Positions 9,234 through 23,504 of a DNA stretch of 25,652 nt are shown here, piece after piece. This DNA is from a virus: positions 1 through 25,652 of the IMG/VR virus record IMGVR_UViG_3300036845_000174; one strand, 5' to 3'. The notes below the pieces were generated by a model, which searched no databases, was not told the origin of the DNA, and saw nothing but the letters and a program-made list of their open reading frames with translations. A program made the position numbers and the translations under genes. Position 1 is the stretch's first letter. Each line of letters begins with the position of its first letter.

Positions 9234-9539
9234 GTGGTGCGCACCCGCCGCGACATGCAGCGGTGGGCGCGCAAGGGCACGACGGAGCAGCGCGGCTACG
9301 GCACCGCGCACCGCGCCGAGCGCGACCGGCGCCTCGCCCGCTGGAAACCCGGCGACCCGTGCGCCCGCTGCGGCCGGCCGATGTACGGCCCTCCGGCGCT
9401 GATCGACCTCGGCCACACCGCCGACCGGACGGCGTACACCGGGCTGGAGCACCGGTCCTGCAACCGGGGCGAAGGCGCACGGCGCGGCAACCGGATGCGC
9501 AGACGGACCAGGGCGTGGCCAGCGGCCCGGCAGTGGTGA
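9234..9539 (+). CDS. HNH endonuclease adjacent to terminase
   Basis: A 101-residue protein with an HNH core: CARC at 43-46, LIDLGH with His61, and LEHRSCNR with His73, Cys76 and Asn77. The flanks are very basic. Small HNH proteins of this type often sit beside the terminase genes of HK97-like phages, where in studied cases they assist cleavage of concatemers during packaging. Its place just before the terminase genes supports that role, all the more because the terminase nuclease half here lacks expected acidic residues. Start is GTG 9234, two bases after the previous stop. Confidence 0.85.
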   Translation: MVRTRRDMQRWARKGTTEQRGYGTAHRAERDRRLARWKPGDPCARCGRPMYGPPALIDLGHTADRTAYTGLEHRSCNRGEGARRGNRMRRRTRAWPAARQW

Positions 9540-9730: not shown

Positions 9731-10057
9731 TTGGCCGATTCAGCGGCCCTCCGCATGCGCAGGTCGCGCGCGCACAAGGCCGGTGACCATTCGCTGTGCA
9801 GGCGCTGTCCGGGCGCTCCTGCCGAGAGAGGCCCGGCGCGCGCGGTCATGCTGCTGCCGCCCGTTCCCGCCGCGGCCGGCCTTGATGCGCCGGCGGAAAT
9901 GCGGGCCCTGGCCGCGCGGCTGGCCGCAGCGCACGAGGGAGAGCCGTCGAACGCGCTCGTGGCCCGCGAGCTGCGCATGACGCTGCGGGAGCTGATCGGC
10001 ATTGAGGGCAGTGGCGGCGCGTTCGATGATCTCGCAGCGGAGTACGGCCCGGCCTAG
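9731..10057 (+). CDS. Terminase small subunit candidate
   Basis: A 108-residue protein starting at TTG 9731, fixed by GGAGGG six bases upstream. It opens with a basic segment ADSAALRMRRSRAHKAGDHSLCRRC, a signature I recognise from proteins just before the terminase in Streptomyces-type phages, then a helical C-terminal half (MRALAARLAAAHEGEPSNALVARELRM). Small terminase subunits recognise the packaging site and load the large subunit. The call rests mostly on position, size and basic N-terminus. It overlaps the large-subunit gene by about 30 bases. Confidence 0.6.
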   Translation: MADSAALRMRRSRAHKAGDHSLCRRCPGAPAERGPARAVMLLPPVPAAAGLDAPAEMRALAARLAAAHEGEPSNALVARELRMTLRELIGIEGSGGAFDDLAAEYGPA

Positions 10058-10952
10058 GTTCGCCACTGCGGCGACACCGGGACGGCCGCACATGGCCGGG
10101 GGCATCGGCCGCACGGCGGTGCGCCTGGGCTTCCGGACAATCCTGGGGCCCGGCCTGATGCCGTGGCAGCATGAGGCGAACGCCGTCACGACGGAGACGG
10201 AGGACGGCCGGTTCGTCTTCCGCGAGGTCATCATCGAGATCATGCGGCAGCAGGGCAAGACGGTCGATCTCCTGTCGATGATGATCGACCGGGGACTGCG
10301 GCGCCCGGGGACGCAGATCAGCTATACGGCGCAGACGCGGCTGGACGCGCGGCACAGGCTGATCGACTCGTGGTGGCCCCGGATCCAGCGCAGTCCCCTG
10401 CGGCGGTATATCGATGTGCGCAAGGGCTCGGGCTCCGAGGCGCTGCTGTTCCGGAACGGTTCCATGCTCAGCCTCGTGTCCGGGACGGAGACGTCCGGCC
10501 ACGGTGACTCGCTTGACCTCGGCGTGATCGACGAGGCGTGGGCGCAGGAAGATGACCACATCGAGCAGGCGATGCGCCCGGCGATGATGACGCGGGACGC
10601 GCAGCTGTGGGTGGTGTCGGCGGCGGGCACGGAGAAGAGCACGTACTTCAGGGACAAGGTCGGCGCCGGACGCGCCCGCGCCGAGCTGGGCGTCACTGAC
10701 ACTTCCTGCTACATCGGCTACAGCTTCGCCGACGACGAGGATCCTGCGGATCCGGAGACGTGGCGGCGCCGCATGCCGGCGCTGGGGATCACGGTTACCG
10801 AGGACACTGTGCGGTCGGACTTTGAGACGATGAAGCTGGCCGAGTTCCGCCGCGCGTACGGCTGCCAGTGGCCGGAGGTGGCCAAGCCGGGCTGGGGTGT
10901 CATCGGCGAGGACACGTGGGGTGCGGCTGCCGTGCAGGGAGGCAGGCTGTGA
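10026..10952 (+). CDS. Terminase large subunit, ATPase part
   Basis: A 308-residue protein with the packaging-motor ATPase fold. The Walker A-like motif is RQQGKT (Arg74 to Thr79, Lys78), and the Walker B is LDLGVIDEAW (Asp169, Glu170). LMPWQHEAN near the start is the usual Q-motif region. Phage large terminases normally continue into a C-terminal RNase H-fold nuclease of about 200 residues; here TGA at 10950 stops the frame and the nuclease follows as a separate overlapping ORF. ATG 10026 was chosen; TTG 10002 and GTG 10014 are alternatives. Role: ATP-driven pumping of DNA into the prohead through the portal. Confidence 0.85.
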   Translation: MISQRSTARPRFATAATPGRPHMAGGIGRTAVRLGFRTILGPGLMPWQHEANAVTTETEDGRFVFREVIIEIMRQQGKTVDLLSMMIDRGLRRPGTQISYTAQTRLDARHRLIDSWWPRIQRSPLRRYIDVRKGSGSEALLFRNGSMLSLVSGTETSGHGDSLDLGVIDEAWAQEDDHIEQAMRPAMMTRDAQLWVVSAAGTEKSTYFRDKVGAGRARAELGVTDTSCYIGYSFADDEDPADPETWRRRMPALGITVTEDTVRSDFETMKLAEFRRAYGCQWPEVAKPGWGVIGEDTWGAAAVQGGRL

Positions 10953-11455
10953 GCGGCGAGGTCGCCTTCGGGTGCGCTATCAGCGAGGACCGCAGGCACG
11001 GCTCGATCGTGGCGGCCGGGCGCGACGGCGCGGGGAAGATCCTGGTAGACCTGGCGCCGTTCTACGATCATCCGCGGCTGCTGGTGGCCCGCATGACCGC
11101 GCTGTACGCGAAGCATGATCCGGTCGCCGTGGTGGTGAACGCGAAGGCGCAGTCGGGGACGCTGATCGAGCCGCTGAAGAACGCGGGGATCATCGTCCTG
11201 CAGCCGTCGGCGGAGGATATGGCGGTTGCGCACGGGGAGTTCCTGGACCTGGTGAACGACGGCGGTCTCGCGCACCTGGACCAGAAGCCGCTGACGGACG
11301 CGGTCCGGGCGGGGCAGCAGCGCCCGCTGGCGGGCGCGAAGGCGTGGGATCCGCATGTGGTGGTGGATCAGTCGCCGCTGGTGGCTGCTACCGGGGCGGT
11401 ATGGGCGTTCCTGCGCTGGGAGGAACTGGCGCAGCCGGGCGTCTGGGCTATGTGA
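10949..11455 (+). CDS. Terminase large subunit, nuclease part (separate ORF, atypical active site)
   Basis: A 168-residue ORF that reads as the missing C-terminal nuclease domain: VAFGCAISEDRRHGS near the start (usual form hydrophobic-D-x-S-P-D-R), then VAVVVNAKAQSGTLIEPLKNAG, PSAEDMAVAHGEFLDLV and VVVDQSPLVAATGAVWAF. GTG 10949 overlaps the ATPase stop (GTGA) and GGGAGG sits just upstream, so it is separately but jointly translated. Expected acidic residues of the RNase H-type site appear replaced: Ala10 (GCT) where Asp is usual and Asn64 (AAC) where Asp is usual; Asp140 is kept. Both are one base from Asp codons. Cutting activity may be lost or shifted to the HNH protein. Confidence 0.8.
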   Translation: MSGEVAFGCAISEDRRHGSIVAAGRDGAGKILVDLAPFYDHPRLLVARMTALYAKHDPVAVVVNAKAQSGTLIEPLKNAGIIVLQPSAEDMAVAHGEFLDLVNDGGLAHLDQKPLTDAVRAGQQRPLAGAKAWDPHVVVDQSPLVAATGAVWAFLRWEELAQPGVWAM

Positions 11456-11502: not shown

Positions 11503-11527
11503 CCCGATTCTGTCCAGTGAGGTGTCC

Positions 11528-11743
11528 GTGCGCTTGTCCGTCATCCTGCTGTGCTGCGCCCTGGCCGGCATCCTGGGCGGCGGCGCGCTGATCGGCGTCC
11601 CGGCGCTGGGCGGCTGCCTGATCTTCGACAGCCTCGCGGTGGGCGCGTGGGCGCTGCTGCGCGATGACGGCCAGCGGTCCGCGCCGTCGGTGCATGAGGT
11701 GCCGACGCTGGCGCAGGTGCTGGAACGGGCGCGGGCATCGTGA
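11528..11743 (+). CDS. Small membrane protein with two spans
   Basis: A 71-residue protein. GTG 11528 was preferred to GTG 11522 because GAGG lies five bases upstream. The N-terminal half gives two closely spaced hydrophobic segments (LSVILLCCALAGILGGGALIGV and LGGCLIFDSLAVGAWALL) forming a membrane hairpin, then a charged tail. Similar small membrane proteins lie between terminase and portal in other actinophages. Its function is unknown; exclusion or a link between packaging and the membrane are guesses. Confidence 0.65.
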   Translation: MRLSVILLCCALAGILGGGALIGVPALGGCLIFDSLAVGAWALLRDDGQRSAPSVHEVPTLAQVLERARAS

Positions 11744-12000
11744 GTCAGTGGATCGACGTGGGCTCCGGTCACCGGGTGCAGCTCCTCGACGGCGGCGGCG
11801 TGCTCTGGGAGCACGACACGCCGCCCGGCTACGCCAACGGTATCTACTCGATCCGGCGGCACGAGGTCTCCCCGAACGAGGGCGCGACATGGATGGTGGA
11901 ACAGCGTGAGCCGCTGACGCTTTCCCCGTCGCTGCACTGCGACCCGGCTATCGGCGGCTGCGGCGCACACGGGTTCATCCGCGACGGGCGCTGGACGTGA
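11740..12000 (+). CDS. DUF6527-like small protein
   Basis: An 86-residue protein from GTG 11740 (GTGA overlap). The C-terminus REPLTLSPSLHC, then GGCGAHGFIRDGRW, resembles the DUF6527 pattern (LTPS ... C-x2-HGFI-x-DG), with Cys and His that may bind a metal. The first half is beta-rich with charged turns. DUF6527 proteins are common in phages and lack a known function. It overlaps the portal gene by four bases. Confidence 0.65.
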   Translation: MSQWIDVGSGHRVQLLDGGGVLWEHDTPPGYANGIYSIRRHEVSPNEGATWMVEQREPLTLSPSLHCDPAIGGCGAHGFIRDGRWT

Positions 12001-13427
12001 GGCTCCTTGACCGGCTGATCCGCCGTGACGGCTACTGGGAGGGCACGGCGTCCGGCGCTGCGGTCCTGACGACCTCCTACGCGTCGGGGGACCGCGAGGC
12101 GGTCATGCCGCAGATGACGGCGTGGGCGCAGTCCGCGCACGGGAACAACTCGGTTGTCTTCAGCGCGATGCTGGTGCGGCTGGCGCTGTTCTGCGAGGCG
12201 AGGTTCACTTACCAGGCCAAGGACGACAGGCACCTGTTCGGCAACACGTCGCTGGCCAAGCTGGAGCAGCCGTTCGGCCCCGGCACGACGACGGGCCACC
12301 TGCTGGCCCGCATGGAGCAGGACAGCGGCCTTACGGGCAACTCCTACACGTGGGACGCGCCGGGCCAGGACCGGCTGGTGCGGCTGCGGCCGGACTGGAC
12401 GACGATCGTCTCCGAGCTGGTGCAGGTCGACGGCGGCGGCCAGTACCGGCGCAAGATCGGCTACTGGGTTGAACCGCCCAGGACGGTCACAGATCAGGGC
12501 GGCGGCCAGTGGTACCCGGCTGACGAGGTGGTGCACTGGGCGCCGATCCCGGACCCGGCGGCGGAGTTCCGGGGGATGAGCTGGCTGACGCCGGTCTACC
12601 GGGACGTCCTCGGCGACGACGGCCTGTCCCAGTACAAGATCAGGTACCTGGAGAACAGCGCCAGCCCCAACCTGCTGATCCGGTACGCGCAGAAGCTTTC
12701 GCCGGGGACGGTCGACAGCGTGCGGGAGCGGATGCACGCCCGCTACGGCGGCGTCTCCAACGCGTTCAAGACGCTGGTCCTGGACCAGGGCGCCGACGTG
12801 ACGGTGATCGGCAACAGCCTGGCGCAGATGGACTTCTCCGGCGTGTCCGCGGTGGGCACGGAACGGATCCTGGCCGCCGCGGGCGTTCCGGGCGTGCTGG
12901 TTGGCCTGGAGCCGCTGCGCGGCGCGGGCCGCGGCTTCCAGGAGTCGATGACCAAGTTCGAGAACCTGTGGGCGAGGCCGCAGTGGCGGTCGGCGTGCGG
13001 GGCGCTGGAGCAGCTGGCGGACGTCCCGGCGGGGAACCGGCTGTGGTTCGACACCTCGGACATCGCGGCGCTGCAGGACTCCGAGACGGCGCGGGCTCAG
13101 GCGGCGCTGGTGCGCGCCCAGGCGCTGCTGGCGCTGGCGCAGGCCGGCTACACGCATGATTCGGCTGTCGCGGCGGTGGAGTCGGGAGACCTGTCCAAGC
13201 TCCAGTCCGGGGGCACGGGGACGCCGGGGCAGTCGCAGCCGGTTCAGCACCTGCTGCCGCAGACTGCGCCGGGCGTGAGCGCCGATCCGCTGCCGCCGTC
13301 GATGCCGCGGCTGCCGGTCGGCTCGACGTCGCCCGGTGACGGCGGGAACGGGACGCGGCCGACGCCGCGGCCCTCGAGCGCGCGGCGTGCGCTGGAACCG
13401 GCGGGAAACGGAGCTGATCATGCCTAA
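11997..13427 (+). CDS. Portal protein (HK97 family)
   Basis: A 476-residue protein of the phage portal family, the twelve-subunit ring through which DNA enters and leaves the head. Recognisable points are MTAWAQSAHGNNSVVFSAM near the start, SGLTGNSYTWDAP, the LVRLRPDWTTIV segment, WYPADEVVHW and the helical KIRYLENSASPNLLIRY followed by FKTLVLDQGADVTVIG. The last 70 residues are Pro/Gly/Ser-rich and probably disordered. The length is slightly above the usual 400-450 because of that tail. GTG 11997 overlaps the previous stop. Position between terminase and protease is standard. Confidence 0.9.
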   Translation: MRLLDRLIRRDGYWEGTASGAAVLTTSYASGDREAVMPQMTAWAQSAHGNNSVVFSAMLVRLALFCEARFTYQAKDDRHLFGNTSLAKLEQPFGPGTTTGHLLARMEQDSGLTGNSYTWDAPGQDRLVRLRPDWTTIVSELVQVDGGGQYRRKIGYWVEPPRTVTDQGGGQWYPADEVVHWAPIPDPAAEFRGMSWLTPVYRDVLGDDGLSQYKIRYLENSASPNLLIRYAQKLSPGTVDSVRERMHARYGGVSNAFKTLVLDQGADVTVIGNSLAQMDFSGVSAVGTERILAAAGVPGVLVGLEPLRGAGRGFQESMTKFENLWARPQWRSACGALEQLADVPAGNRLWFDTSDIAALQDSETARAQAALVRAQALLALAQAGYTHDSAVAAVESGDLSKLQSGGTGTPGQSQPVQHLLPQTAPGVSADPLPPSMPRLPVGSTSPGDGGNGTRPTPRPSSARRALEPAGNGADHA

Positions 13428-18469: not shown

Positions 18470-18892
18470 GTGTCCAACCCTGAGTACCAGGGGGTTTCCC
18501 CGCAGGGGACCCCGCCGCCGGTCACCCCGGCGGACTCGCCGTCCGACCCGTCCGGCTACGCGTCCGTCACCCCGGCGGGGACGGGCCCCGCGCCGTACAG
18601 CATCACCGCGCCGCTGGACGACCTCGGCGCGATGACGGACGCGGCGGGCGCGCTGGCGGGCGCCGGGATCGTCTACCCGGCGGGCCCGCGCCAGGCTGCC
18701 ACGGCCGAGCTGATGAACTCGCCGCAGGGCTTCAGCGCCGGGGGCGGGACGTCGGGGTGGGATATCACCCCCGGCTATTCCGGCGACGGCGCCAGCCCGC
18801 GCGGCGGGTGGCCGGACAACCCGCAGCCGTCGATCCTGGAGACCCCGGACCAGGGGCACGGCAGCAACGAGGCGAACACGGGCACCGACTGA
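18470..18892 (+). CDS. Hypothetical Pro/Gly-rich protein
   Basis: A 140-residue acidic protein from GTG 18470 with GGAGAA as ribosome site. It is rich in Pro, Gly, Ser, Thr and Asp, for example GTPPPVTPADSPSDPSGYAS, with a short ordered part (LDDLGAMTDAAGALAGAGIVY). The likely disorder suggests a linker or surface protein. It sits just before the glycosyltransferase-like gene and might be a substrate, but nothing in the sequence proves this. Confidence 0.55.
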   Translation: MSNPEYQGVSPQGTPPPVTPADSPSDPSGYASVTPAGTGPAPYSITAPLDDLGAMTDAAGALAGAGIVYPAGPRQAATAELMNSPQGFSAGGGTSGWDITPGYSGDGASPRGGWPDNPQPSILETPDQGHGSNEANTGTD

Positions 18893-18894
18893 GC

Positions 18895-19533
18895 ATGCCT
18901 GACGCGGTGATCGGCTACCTGCACCCCGGCAGCGTCCGCGCCGAGTTCTGCGCGTCGCTGCTGGGCGTGTGCATGGAGGGCCGGACGCGGATCCGGACGG
19001 TGATCGCGCTGGAGTCGGGGCCGAACCTGTCAACGGGCCGGAACCTGATGGTGCGGGATTTCCTCGAGGACGGCCTGGCGCCGTGGCTGCTCATGTGCGA
19101 CACCGACATGTGGTTCGGCGCCGACACGGCAGACCGGCTGATCGCGGCCGCCGACCCGGCCGAGCGGCCCGTCGTCGGCGCCCTGTGCTGGTCGCTGGAC
19201 AAGGGCGAGCGGTTCCCGACGATGTACGAGCTGACCGAGCCGGAGCCGGGCCGGGTCGCGTTCGCCCGCTACAGGCAGTGGCCGGAGGACGCGTGCGTCC
19301 CGGTCGCGGCGACCGGCGCGGCGTGCCTGCTGATGCACCGTGACGCGCTGGAGAAGGTCGCCGCCTCCGCCGGGGACCTGGCCGCGCCGTGGTTCCGGGA
19401 GACGGCCATCGGGCCGATGGCGCTGATGGGCGAGGACATGACGTTCTGCCTGCGCCTCCAGGCGGCGGGGATACCGGTGCACGTCCATACGGGCGTGAAG
19501 GCCGGGCACATGAAGACGACGATGCTGATCTAG
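18895..19533 (+). CDS. GT-A-type glycosyltransferase-like protein
   Basis: A 212-residue protein with a nucleotide-sugar-transferase look: an N-terminal strand AVIGYLHPG, a GPNLSTGRNLMVRDFLEDG helix, and LLMCDTDMWFG holding the Asp-x-Asp (69-71) that binds metal and sugar nucleotide in GT-A enzymes. A later MGEDMTFCLRLQAAG resembles the ED-containing acceptor/catalytic motif of family-2-like enzymes, then HVHTGVKAGH. It is shorter than bacterial enzymes but typical for phage versions. It could glycosylate virion proteins or, less likely in this position, the host surface. The fold call is good, the substrate is unknown. Confidence 0.75.
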   Translation: MPDAVIGYLHPGSVRAEFCASLLGVCMEGRTRIRTVIALESGPNLSTGRNLMVRDFLEDGLAPWLLMCDTDMWFGADTADRLIAAADPAERPVVGALCWSLDKGERFPTMYELTEPEPGRVAFARYRQWPEDACVPVAATGAACLLMHRDALEKVAASAGDLAAPWFRETAIGPMALMGEDMTFCLRLQAAGIPVHVHTGVKAGHMKTTMLI

Positions 19534-22090: not shown

Positions 22091-22965
22091 GGCAGCCCAT
22101 CCGCGTCAGCACGACCATCCGCGACTTCACCGGTACCCTGGTCAACCCGGCGTCGCTGACGCTGCTGGTGAAGGTCGCGCAGGCCGACGGCACGCAGCTC
22201 ACCGCCGGCACCTACGCGAGCCCGGTCAACGACTCCACCGGCGCCTACCACCAGGACATCCCGGTCACCGACCTGGCAGCCACGGGCCACTACCAGTACA
22301 CGTGGACGGCAACCGGCACCGGCGCGGGCGTCTCGTTCGGCGACTTCGACGTGTTCGACCCGTTCGAGATCGCGGTGCTGCCGCTGCAGGACGCGAAGGA
22401 TGCACTGAACATCCCGCAGGATAAGACCGCCAGCGACAGCGAGATCCAGCAGTACATCGCGACGATCCAGGCGTGCATGGAGCGGATGACCGGTGGCCCG
22501 CTGGTCAACCGCAGCGTCACCGAGCGGGCCGAGCTGCTCGACCGCCAGACGGTGCTGCTCGTCCGCCAGCGCCCGCTCGTGTCGGTGACGTCGATCGTCT
22601 CGGTCGCGTCCGGGCTGCCGCTCGACATCAGCGCCGGGCTCGACATCGACGCGAACGCGGGGACGATCCGCCGCAAGCTCGGCTACCCGTTCTACGGCCC
22701 GTTCTTCGTCTGGCTGCCCGCGATGAGCATCACGTACGTGGCCGGGTGGGGGACGTCGGTTCCGGCGGCGTTCAACACGGCTGCGCGGATCATCCTGCAG
22801 AACCTGTGGGAGACCCAGCACGGGCCGTCGGCGCGGCCGTCGATGGGCGCGAACTCGGACATGGTGACGATGCCGGGGTGGGGGTTCGCGATCCCGAACC
22901 AGGCCGCCGAGCTACTGGAGGGCTCGCAGGGCGGGATGCCGTTCGTGAGCGAGGTCTACGTGTGA
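22072..22965 (+). CDS. Head-tail connector (gp6-like) with N-terminal beta domain
   Basis: A 297-residue two-part protein. Residues 1-105 are a beta-sandwich-like domain (IRVSTTIRDFTGTLVNPASLTLLVKV, GHYQYTWTATGTG). From about residue 106, LQDAKDALNIPQDKTASDSEIQQYIATIQACMERMTGG is the classic helical start of the HK97 gp6-type connector, which forms a ring beneath the portal; the later ITYVAGWGTSVPAAFNTAARIILQNLW continues that family. GTG 22072 was chosen because GGAGGT precedes it; GTG 22060 is inside that site. Most phages have the connector alone, so the N-terminal fusion is a variation. Confidence 0.8.
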   Translation: MARYPLGQPIRVSTTIRDFTGTLVNPASLTLLVKVAQADGTQLTAGTYASPVNDSTGAYHQDIPVTDLAATGHYQYTWTATGTGAGVSFGDFDVFDPFEIAVLPLQDAKDALNIPQDKTASDSEIQQYIATIQACMERMTGGPLVNRSVTERAELLDRQTVLLVRQRPLVSVTSIVSVASGLPLDISAGLDIDANAGTIRRKLGYPFYGPFFVWLPAMSITYVAGWGTSVPAAFNTAARIILQNLWETQHGPSARPSMGANSDMVTMPGWGFAIPNQAAELLEGSQGGMPFVSEVYV

Positions 22966-23504
22966 AGATCTTCTATGACGCCGAGTTCCTTGAGGACGGC
23001 CGCACCGTCGACCTGATCTCGATCGGGATGGTCGCCGAGGATGGCCGCGAATATTACGCGGTCAGCCGGGACGCATCAAAGCGCCGGTTGCGCCGGCGCA
23101 TCCGCAGGCACCCGTGGCTGATGGCAAACGTCGTCCCGTCGCTGCCGAAAGCTCACGGCGACTGGAATCTGTACATGCCACGGCGCTGGCTGTTCAACTA
23201 TTCCGACCCTTGCGTCAAGCCGCGCCACCTGATCGCCCGCGAGGTCCGGGATTTCATCCTCGCCACGCCGGAAGCGCAACTGTGGGCCTGGTATGGCGCA
23301 TATGACCACGTGGCCCTCTGTCAGCTCTGGGGCCGCATGATCGACCTGCCGGAGGGTGTCCCGATGTGGACGAATGACCTTAAGCAGGAATGCGTCCGGC
23401 TCGGCAACCCGAAGATTCCCCGGCAGGCAAGCGGCGAGCACAATGCGCTCGAGGACGCGCGGCACAACCGGGCCATCGCCGAGTTTCTCAAGGCGTACGT
23501 CTAG
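22962..23504 (+). CDS. DEDDh 3'-5' exonuclease (Rv2179c-like)
   Basis: A 180-residue protein matching the small DEDDh exoribonuclease family typified by mycobacterial Rv2179c (3'-5' exoribonuclease-like, PF16473). Active-site residues are all visible: Asp6 and Glu8 in FYDAEF, Asp115 in WYGAYDH, His160 and Asp165 in HNALEDARHN. These bind two metal ions and remove nucleotides from 3' ends. It lies between two head-completion genes and overlaps both (GTGA and one base), an odd place for a nuclease. Its codons include more A/T in the wobble position than its neighbours, suggesting later acquisition. Role may be RNA turnover or host defence interplay. Confidence 0.85.
   Translation: MKIFYDAEFLEDGRTVDLISIGMVAEDGREYYAVSRDASKRRLRRRIRRHPWLMANVVPSLPKAHGDWNLYMPRRWLFNYSDPCVKPRHLIAREVRDFILATPEAQLWAWYGAYDHVALCQLWGRMIDLPEGVPMWTNDLKQECVRLGNPKIPRQASGEHNALEDARHNRAIAEFLKAYV

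Follow-up and report, generated by a model that had tools for sequence, protein, structure and literature searches.

A two-gene large terminase in uncultured soil phages, with a nuclease-fold subunit that has probably lost catalysis in one group

Tailed phages are described as universally having a large terminase (TerL) that unites its two domains, ATPase and nuclease, in a single chain (PMC7824862), and the coupling of these domains is central to models of the packaging motor. The HK97 TerL has the catalytic residues D302, D388 and D471, and the HNH protein gp74 stimulates cos cleavage by this enzyme (PMC9410871). The nuclease domain of phi29 gp16 is vestigial and binds DNA; its vestigial state is attributed to the unit-length genomes of this phage, and every other phage is stated to have a functional nuclease here (PMC7672431). 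Moreover, phi29 uses pRNA, has no small terminase (TerS) and packages unit-length, protein-capped genomes (PMC9410871). For the HCMV terminase pUL56/pUL89, the ATPase and nuclease functions are assigned to different subunits (PMC6897398). The herpesvirus case nevertheless differs in kind from the domain split considered here, as pUL89 by itself has two domains and is TerL-like. Among the SEA-PHAGES functional terms are ones for separate TerL ATPase and nuclease domains, and isolated cases of split TerL may already be known; no split terminases were found in the literature searched, mostly outside subscription papers. Nor did this literature, or isolate phages, yield the combination described below, that is, a stable split with exchange of partners and a maintained pseudonuclease.

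The closest isolate relatives are the fused TerLs of Gordonia, Arthrobacter and Mycobacterium phages (Keelan, CallinAllBarbz, Kiko); nuclease domains of the isolate TerLs are about 33–41% identical to members of the split family. The difference is that TerL in these phages is a single gene, and among the 757 isolate records with a nuclease match, each one that was listed or sampled has one terminase gene. The CallinAllBarbz TerL, used as a query, found no relatives among viral contigs.

The window, that is, the whole stretch of DNA analysed, is a 25,652-bp IMG/VR virus record, a metagenomic contig classed as linear without end repeats, with the GC content of about 70%. PHROG and Pfam matches identify RecT, a PDDEXK protein (DUF3799), a RusA-like resolvase, the portal, a Peptidase_S78 protease and an HK97-type capsid protein; the features relevant here are listed in Table 1. 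The search for relatives in genome contigs produced a single match, to an Actinomycetota MAG contig, and the host of the phage is uncertain. The TerS–TerL–portal–protease–capsid gene order, the ATPase and RNase H-like domains and the HNH gene near the terminase resemble HK97 and other cos-type systems, whereas the arrangement differs in that the HK97 TerL is one chain with three catalytic Asp residues, while here there are two genes and, in the group of the window, Ala, Asn and Asp at these positions. The likeness to phi29 gp16 is an RNase H-like domain retained without catalytic residues, two of three being lost in the window's group. On the other hand, gp16 is one chain working with pRNA and no TerS, while the window has a probable TerS, RecT and the HNH gene, the former two speaking against phi29-type packaging. 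The TerS gene is assigned as probable by its place and length: it has no PHROG or Pfam match, and relatives with the type I ATPase (see below) keep upstream ORFs of the same kind (MADSxALRxRRxRAH...).

Table 1. Positions of the terminase genes and associated features in the window
Feature	Positions	Strand	Basis
HNH endonuclease gene, 101 aa, upstream of terminase; candidate cutter	9234..9539	+	phrog_1808, E 3e-15
Probable small terminase (TerS) gene, TTG start, overlaps ATPase start	9731..10057	+	position and length
TerL ATPase subunit, 308 aa, ATG 10026 to TGA 10950-10952	10026..10952	+	phrog_9 positions 202-471, E 4e-34
GGGAGG Shine-Dalgarno-like site, 6 nt before GTG	10937..10942	+	sequence; anti-SD duplex energy -11.1
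GTGA stop/start overlap, 4 nt	10949..10952	+	sequence; same overlap length in 66/89 split loci
Separately encoded TerL nuclease-fold subunit, RNase H-like, 168 aa, GTG start, -1 frame	10949..11455	+	phrog_9 positions 557-668, E 7e-8
Codon 10 of second subunit, GCT (Ala), replaces first catalytic Asp/Glu	10976..10978	+	alignments
Codon 64, AAC (Asn), replaces second catalytic Asp	11138..11140	+	alignments
Codon 140, GAT (Asp), third catalytic Asp retained	11366..11368	+	alignments
Portal protein gene	11997..13427	+	PF04860, E 3e-25

The first terminase ORF carries Walker A (RQQGKT, 10245–10262) and Walker B (VIDEAW, 10524–10541) motifs, has a Pfam TerL_ATPase match below the family cut-off, and is 68–80% identical to its relatives in viral contigs. 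Both ORFs, when compared with terminase profiles as an earlier note on this DNA had suggested, match phrog_9, the terminase large subunit, and the matched parts of this one family are complementary. Hence the window has the Walker-type packaging ATPase and the RNase H-like domain of a phage TerL, but in two ORFs instead of one polypeptide. The coordinates, frames and motifs given in the earlier note were correct.

Viral contigs scanned with each half yielded 93 distinct loci carrying both. Of these, 89 are split and four are fused (L065, L066, L136, L137), so that the stable two-subunit form suggested in the earlier note is strongly supported: the same split recurs in other phages too widely to be due to chance, and almost all relatives lack one continuous gene. 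The split-terminase group is a large, uncultured group of soil phages. Our main reading, to which we assign a probability of about 0.7, is that TerL here is encoded by two genes, that its second subunit no longer cuts DNA in the window's group, and that the upstream HNH endonuclease cuts the genome or completes the cutting.

The AlphaFold2 model of the second subunit is confident (pLDDT 87) and RNase H-like. When aligned by hhalign to the nuclease domains of fused phage TerLs (99.9%), positions 10, 64 and 140 pair with the conserved Asp residues, and MAFFT alignments also place A10, N64 and D140 at the three catalytic positions. Thus the window lacks two of the three catalytic carboxylates of TerL, and its nuclease domain is by sequence vestigial in the phi29 sense, two of three ligands being lost. 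The earlier description of a full nuclease domain holds for the fold, which is complete, and fails for the active site, in the window as well as in its group. The catalytic states were scored in 86 split proteins, of which 51 belong to the group of the window; the states at 10/64/140 are AND (49), EDD (32), QDD (2), ADD, AYD and HND (one each). The changes in the window's group are E10A and D64N plus R135P and R66K at the active site, with D140 kept. The two groups are told apart best by columns 10, 64, 135, 66 and 134, all of them at the active site. The four fused loci are EDD or DDD, and most fused phage controls retain D/E, D and D. At least one acid is lost also in a few fused TerLs (L171–L174, RRH1, Toulouse), hence a damaged site alone is not unique. 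The first nuclease position in L171–L174, a separate set, is occupied by Arg or Lys, and the third is Ser in three of them, apparently a further case of a lost catalytic triad.

In the phylogenetic tree, constructed without the group-separating columns, the split proteins all share a single long branch, which has full support and adjoins L065 and L066. The damaged state requires up to five changes on this tree, and the p-AU value for a single clade is 0.30, so a single origin of the residue loss is neither rejected nor demonstrated.

The best-surviving alternative is a two-gene terminase whose nuclease subunit is still catalytic, with D140 and other ligands forming an altered metal site. It agrees with the preserved fold, with the invariance of S12, R15, H95, D100 and D140 across both groups, and with purifying selection on the AND-type nuclease genes (dN/dS 0.09–0.37), these values, well below 1, meaning that the protein is maintained and not decaying. 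However, the EDD group has these invariant residues just as well, so that they offer no substitute for the lost ligands, and no new AND-specific acidic residue was found near the site among the aligned split proteins. The first and second acids of RNase H-fold nucleases are needed for two-metal catalysis. The comparison of the P22 and phi29 nuclease domains bears on this requirement (PMC7672431). Overall, an active subunit of this kind seems unlikely. As two of three metal ligands are lost, the subunit in the window's group, judged by its residues, has probably ceased to be an active nuclease; some residual or one-metal activity may persist, D140 and other conserved polar residues being retained.

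The ATPases adjoining this one family of nuclease subunits form three clusters, 25–30% identical to one another. Nuclease subunits that are up to 91% identical adjoin ATPases with the identity of only 25–30%, e.g. in L022 and L090, and among the closest relatives of the second subunit of the window there are both type I (L010) and type II (L012) partners. Since similar nuclease subunits co-occur with divergent ATPases, the halves have been exchanged as separate genes. In the type II loci the gene upstream of the ATPase, at the place expected for TerS, differs as well.

Such tolerance of partner exchange is also what one would expect if the second ORF had left packaging and were an independent protein of the RNase H/RuvC fold that merely adjoins the ATPase. 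Sequence searches against PDB (with A1, A3 and L065) gave unrelated matches only, and the NCBIfam profile search gave nothing useful; as the PDB searches were uninformative, a fold search was needed. Foldseek ranks RuvC and Ydc2 above the HK97 TerL by E-value, in line with an independent protein, whereas the best TM-score is that of the HK97 TerL (6z6d, 0.58). Against independence, the subunit matches the TerL profile, and the ATPase C-termini retain a linker-like segment, W-x-(V/I)-(I/L)-x-x-(D/G)-x-W, across the ATPase types. Moreover, among 19 long records all have an ATPase match and 18 have one separate nuclease match, with no second TerL, and no other TerL nuclease domain was found in them. 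We consider an independent protein improbable.

The 4-nt stop/start overlap is accompanied in the window by a Shine–Dalgarno-like site, and the earlier note had taken it for a good ribosome site. The site is indeed present, but it is not a feature of the family: the pairing in relatives is barely above the background (mean −5.9 at overlap junctions vs −4.3 in the control). This weakness implies that the conserved signature is the NTGA overlap and not the ribosome site. The overlap places the halves in adjacent frames in most loci, as would suit a programmed −1 frameshift or stop–start slippage producing fused TerL as the working product. However, no slippery heptamer is seen at the window junction, as the earlier note had remarked, and the second ORF starts at a conserved codon of its own. 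Further, in about 20 split loci the halves are separated by 82–1035 nt, often by whole genes. Genes are inserted in about 16 loci, mostly with 4-nt overlaps at both joints. They encode an N6/N4 methyltransferase of 222–231 aa (L041, positions 1092–1787; L096, L129), a DUF2283 protein (L071/L074/L075/L120), or a 62-aa ORF (L015/L021 and others). These clean insertions mean that the halves need not be fused, and the fused product proposed in the earlier note is excluded as the required mode for the insertion loci; for the family as a whole we consider it very improbable. Although a difference of one base at the junction would in principle be enough to bring both halves into one frame, an artefact of sequencing or assembly, or the recent breakdown of an ordinary single-chain TerL, is rejected, as the same split is shared by 89 distinct loci from many metagenomes, some with whole genes at the joint, and dN/dS is well below 1. 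Inserted genes and the wide distribution of the split together exclude error, decay and obligate frameshifting, and there is hardly any doubt that this is a stable, functional two-gene terminase. In the fused L065 and L066, the ATPase is about 71% identical to that of the window, and the junction lies within the interdomain linker.

Clean insertions of genes recur at the joint of the two TerL genes (L041, L096, L129, L071, L074, L015, L087, L114).

The HNH gene was recognised by the comparison of gene neighbourhoods together with phrog_1808, Pfam PF01844 finding it in only 2 of 22 records. Of the 38 loci whose sequence reaches far enough upstream of the terminase genes, 36 have its homologue there; D58, H61 and N77 are invariant, and related HNH genes sit at genome ends in Arthrobacter phages. 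The homologues show two zinc-ligand patterns, CxxC...HRxCN and CxHGG...CRRHN, as if the ligands were swapped in pairs. The upstream HNH gene occurs in both residue groups, AND and E/D/D, and in the fused L066; hence its presence does not track the residue loss, and this is the main weakness of the step that assigns cutting to it. We tentatively suggest, at somewhat less than even odds, that the HNH protein is the main cutter at packaging.

Under the main reading, one mRNA would yield the ATPase motor subunit and the separate RNase H-fold subunit by translational coupling at GTGA, and the two most likely assemble into a packaging motor as they do in the single chain. In the window's group the RNase H-fold subunit most likely does not cut DNA any longer and may be retained to grip DNA, to dock at the portal or to position the cleavage; the HNH endonuclease most likely does the cutting or completes it. 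The simplest reading would be that this division of labour pre-existed and the TerL acids then became dispensable in one group. The stronger version, in which the RNase H-like subunit is a portable non-cutting part serving at least three ATPases and all cutting is done by HNH, is rather doubtful; if true, it would be an instance of tailed-phage packaging outside the phi29 type with a non-cutting large terminase. A natural two-gene TerL whose ATPases can be exchanged shows that the motor can do without the covalent linker, and the motor, the nuclease-fold ring and the cutter can be separated using natural parts. A conserved subunit that has lost its catalytic site permits a direct test of whether HNH alone can cut genomes for packaging.

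Three other ORFs of the window are worth mentioning. An ORF of 73 aa (11522–11743) with a hydrophobic N-terminal half lies between the nuclease-fold subunit and the portal gene and is kept in 12 of 13 compared contigs. The ORF at 22473–23504, situated among the head–tail genes, has an Rv2179c-like 3'-5' exoribonuclease domain (PF16473, E 8e-12). Finally, a glycosyltransferase-like ORF (18757–19533; phrog_34859, E 4e-14) lies within the structural gene region and is kept in 11 related contigs.
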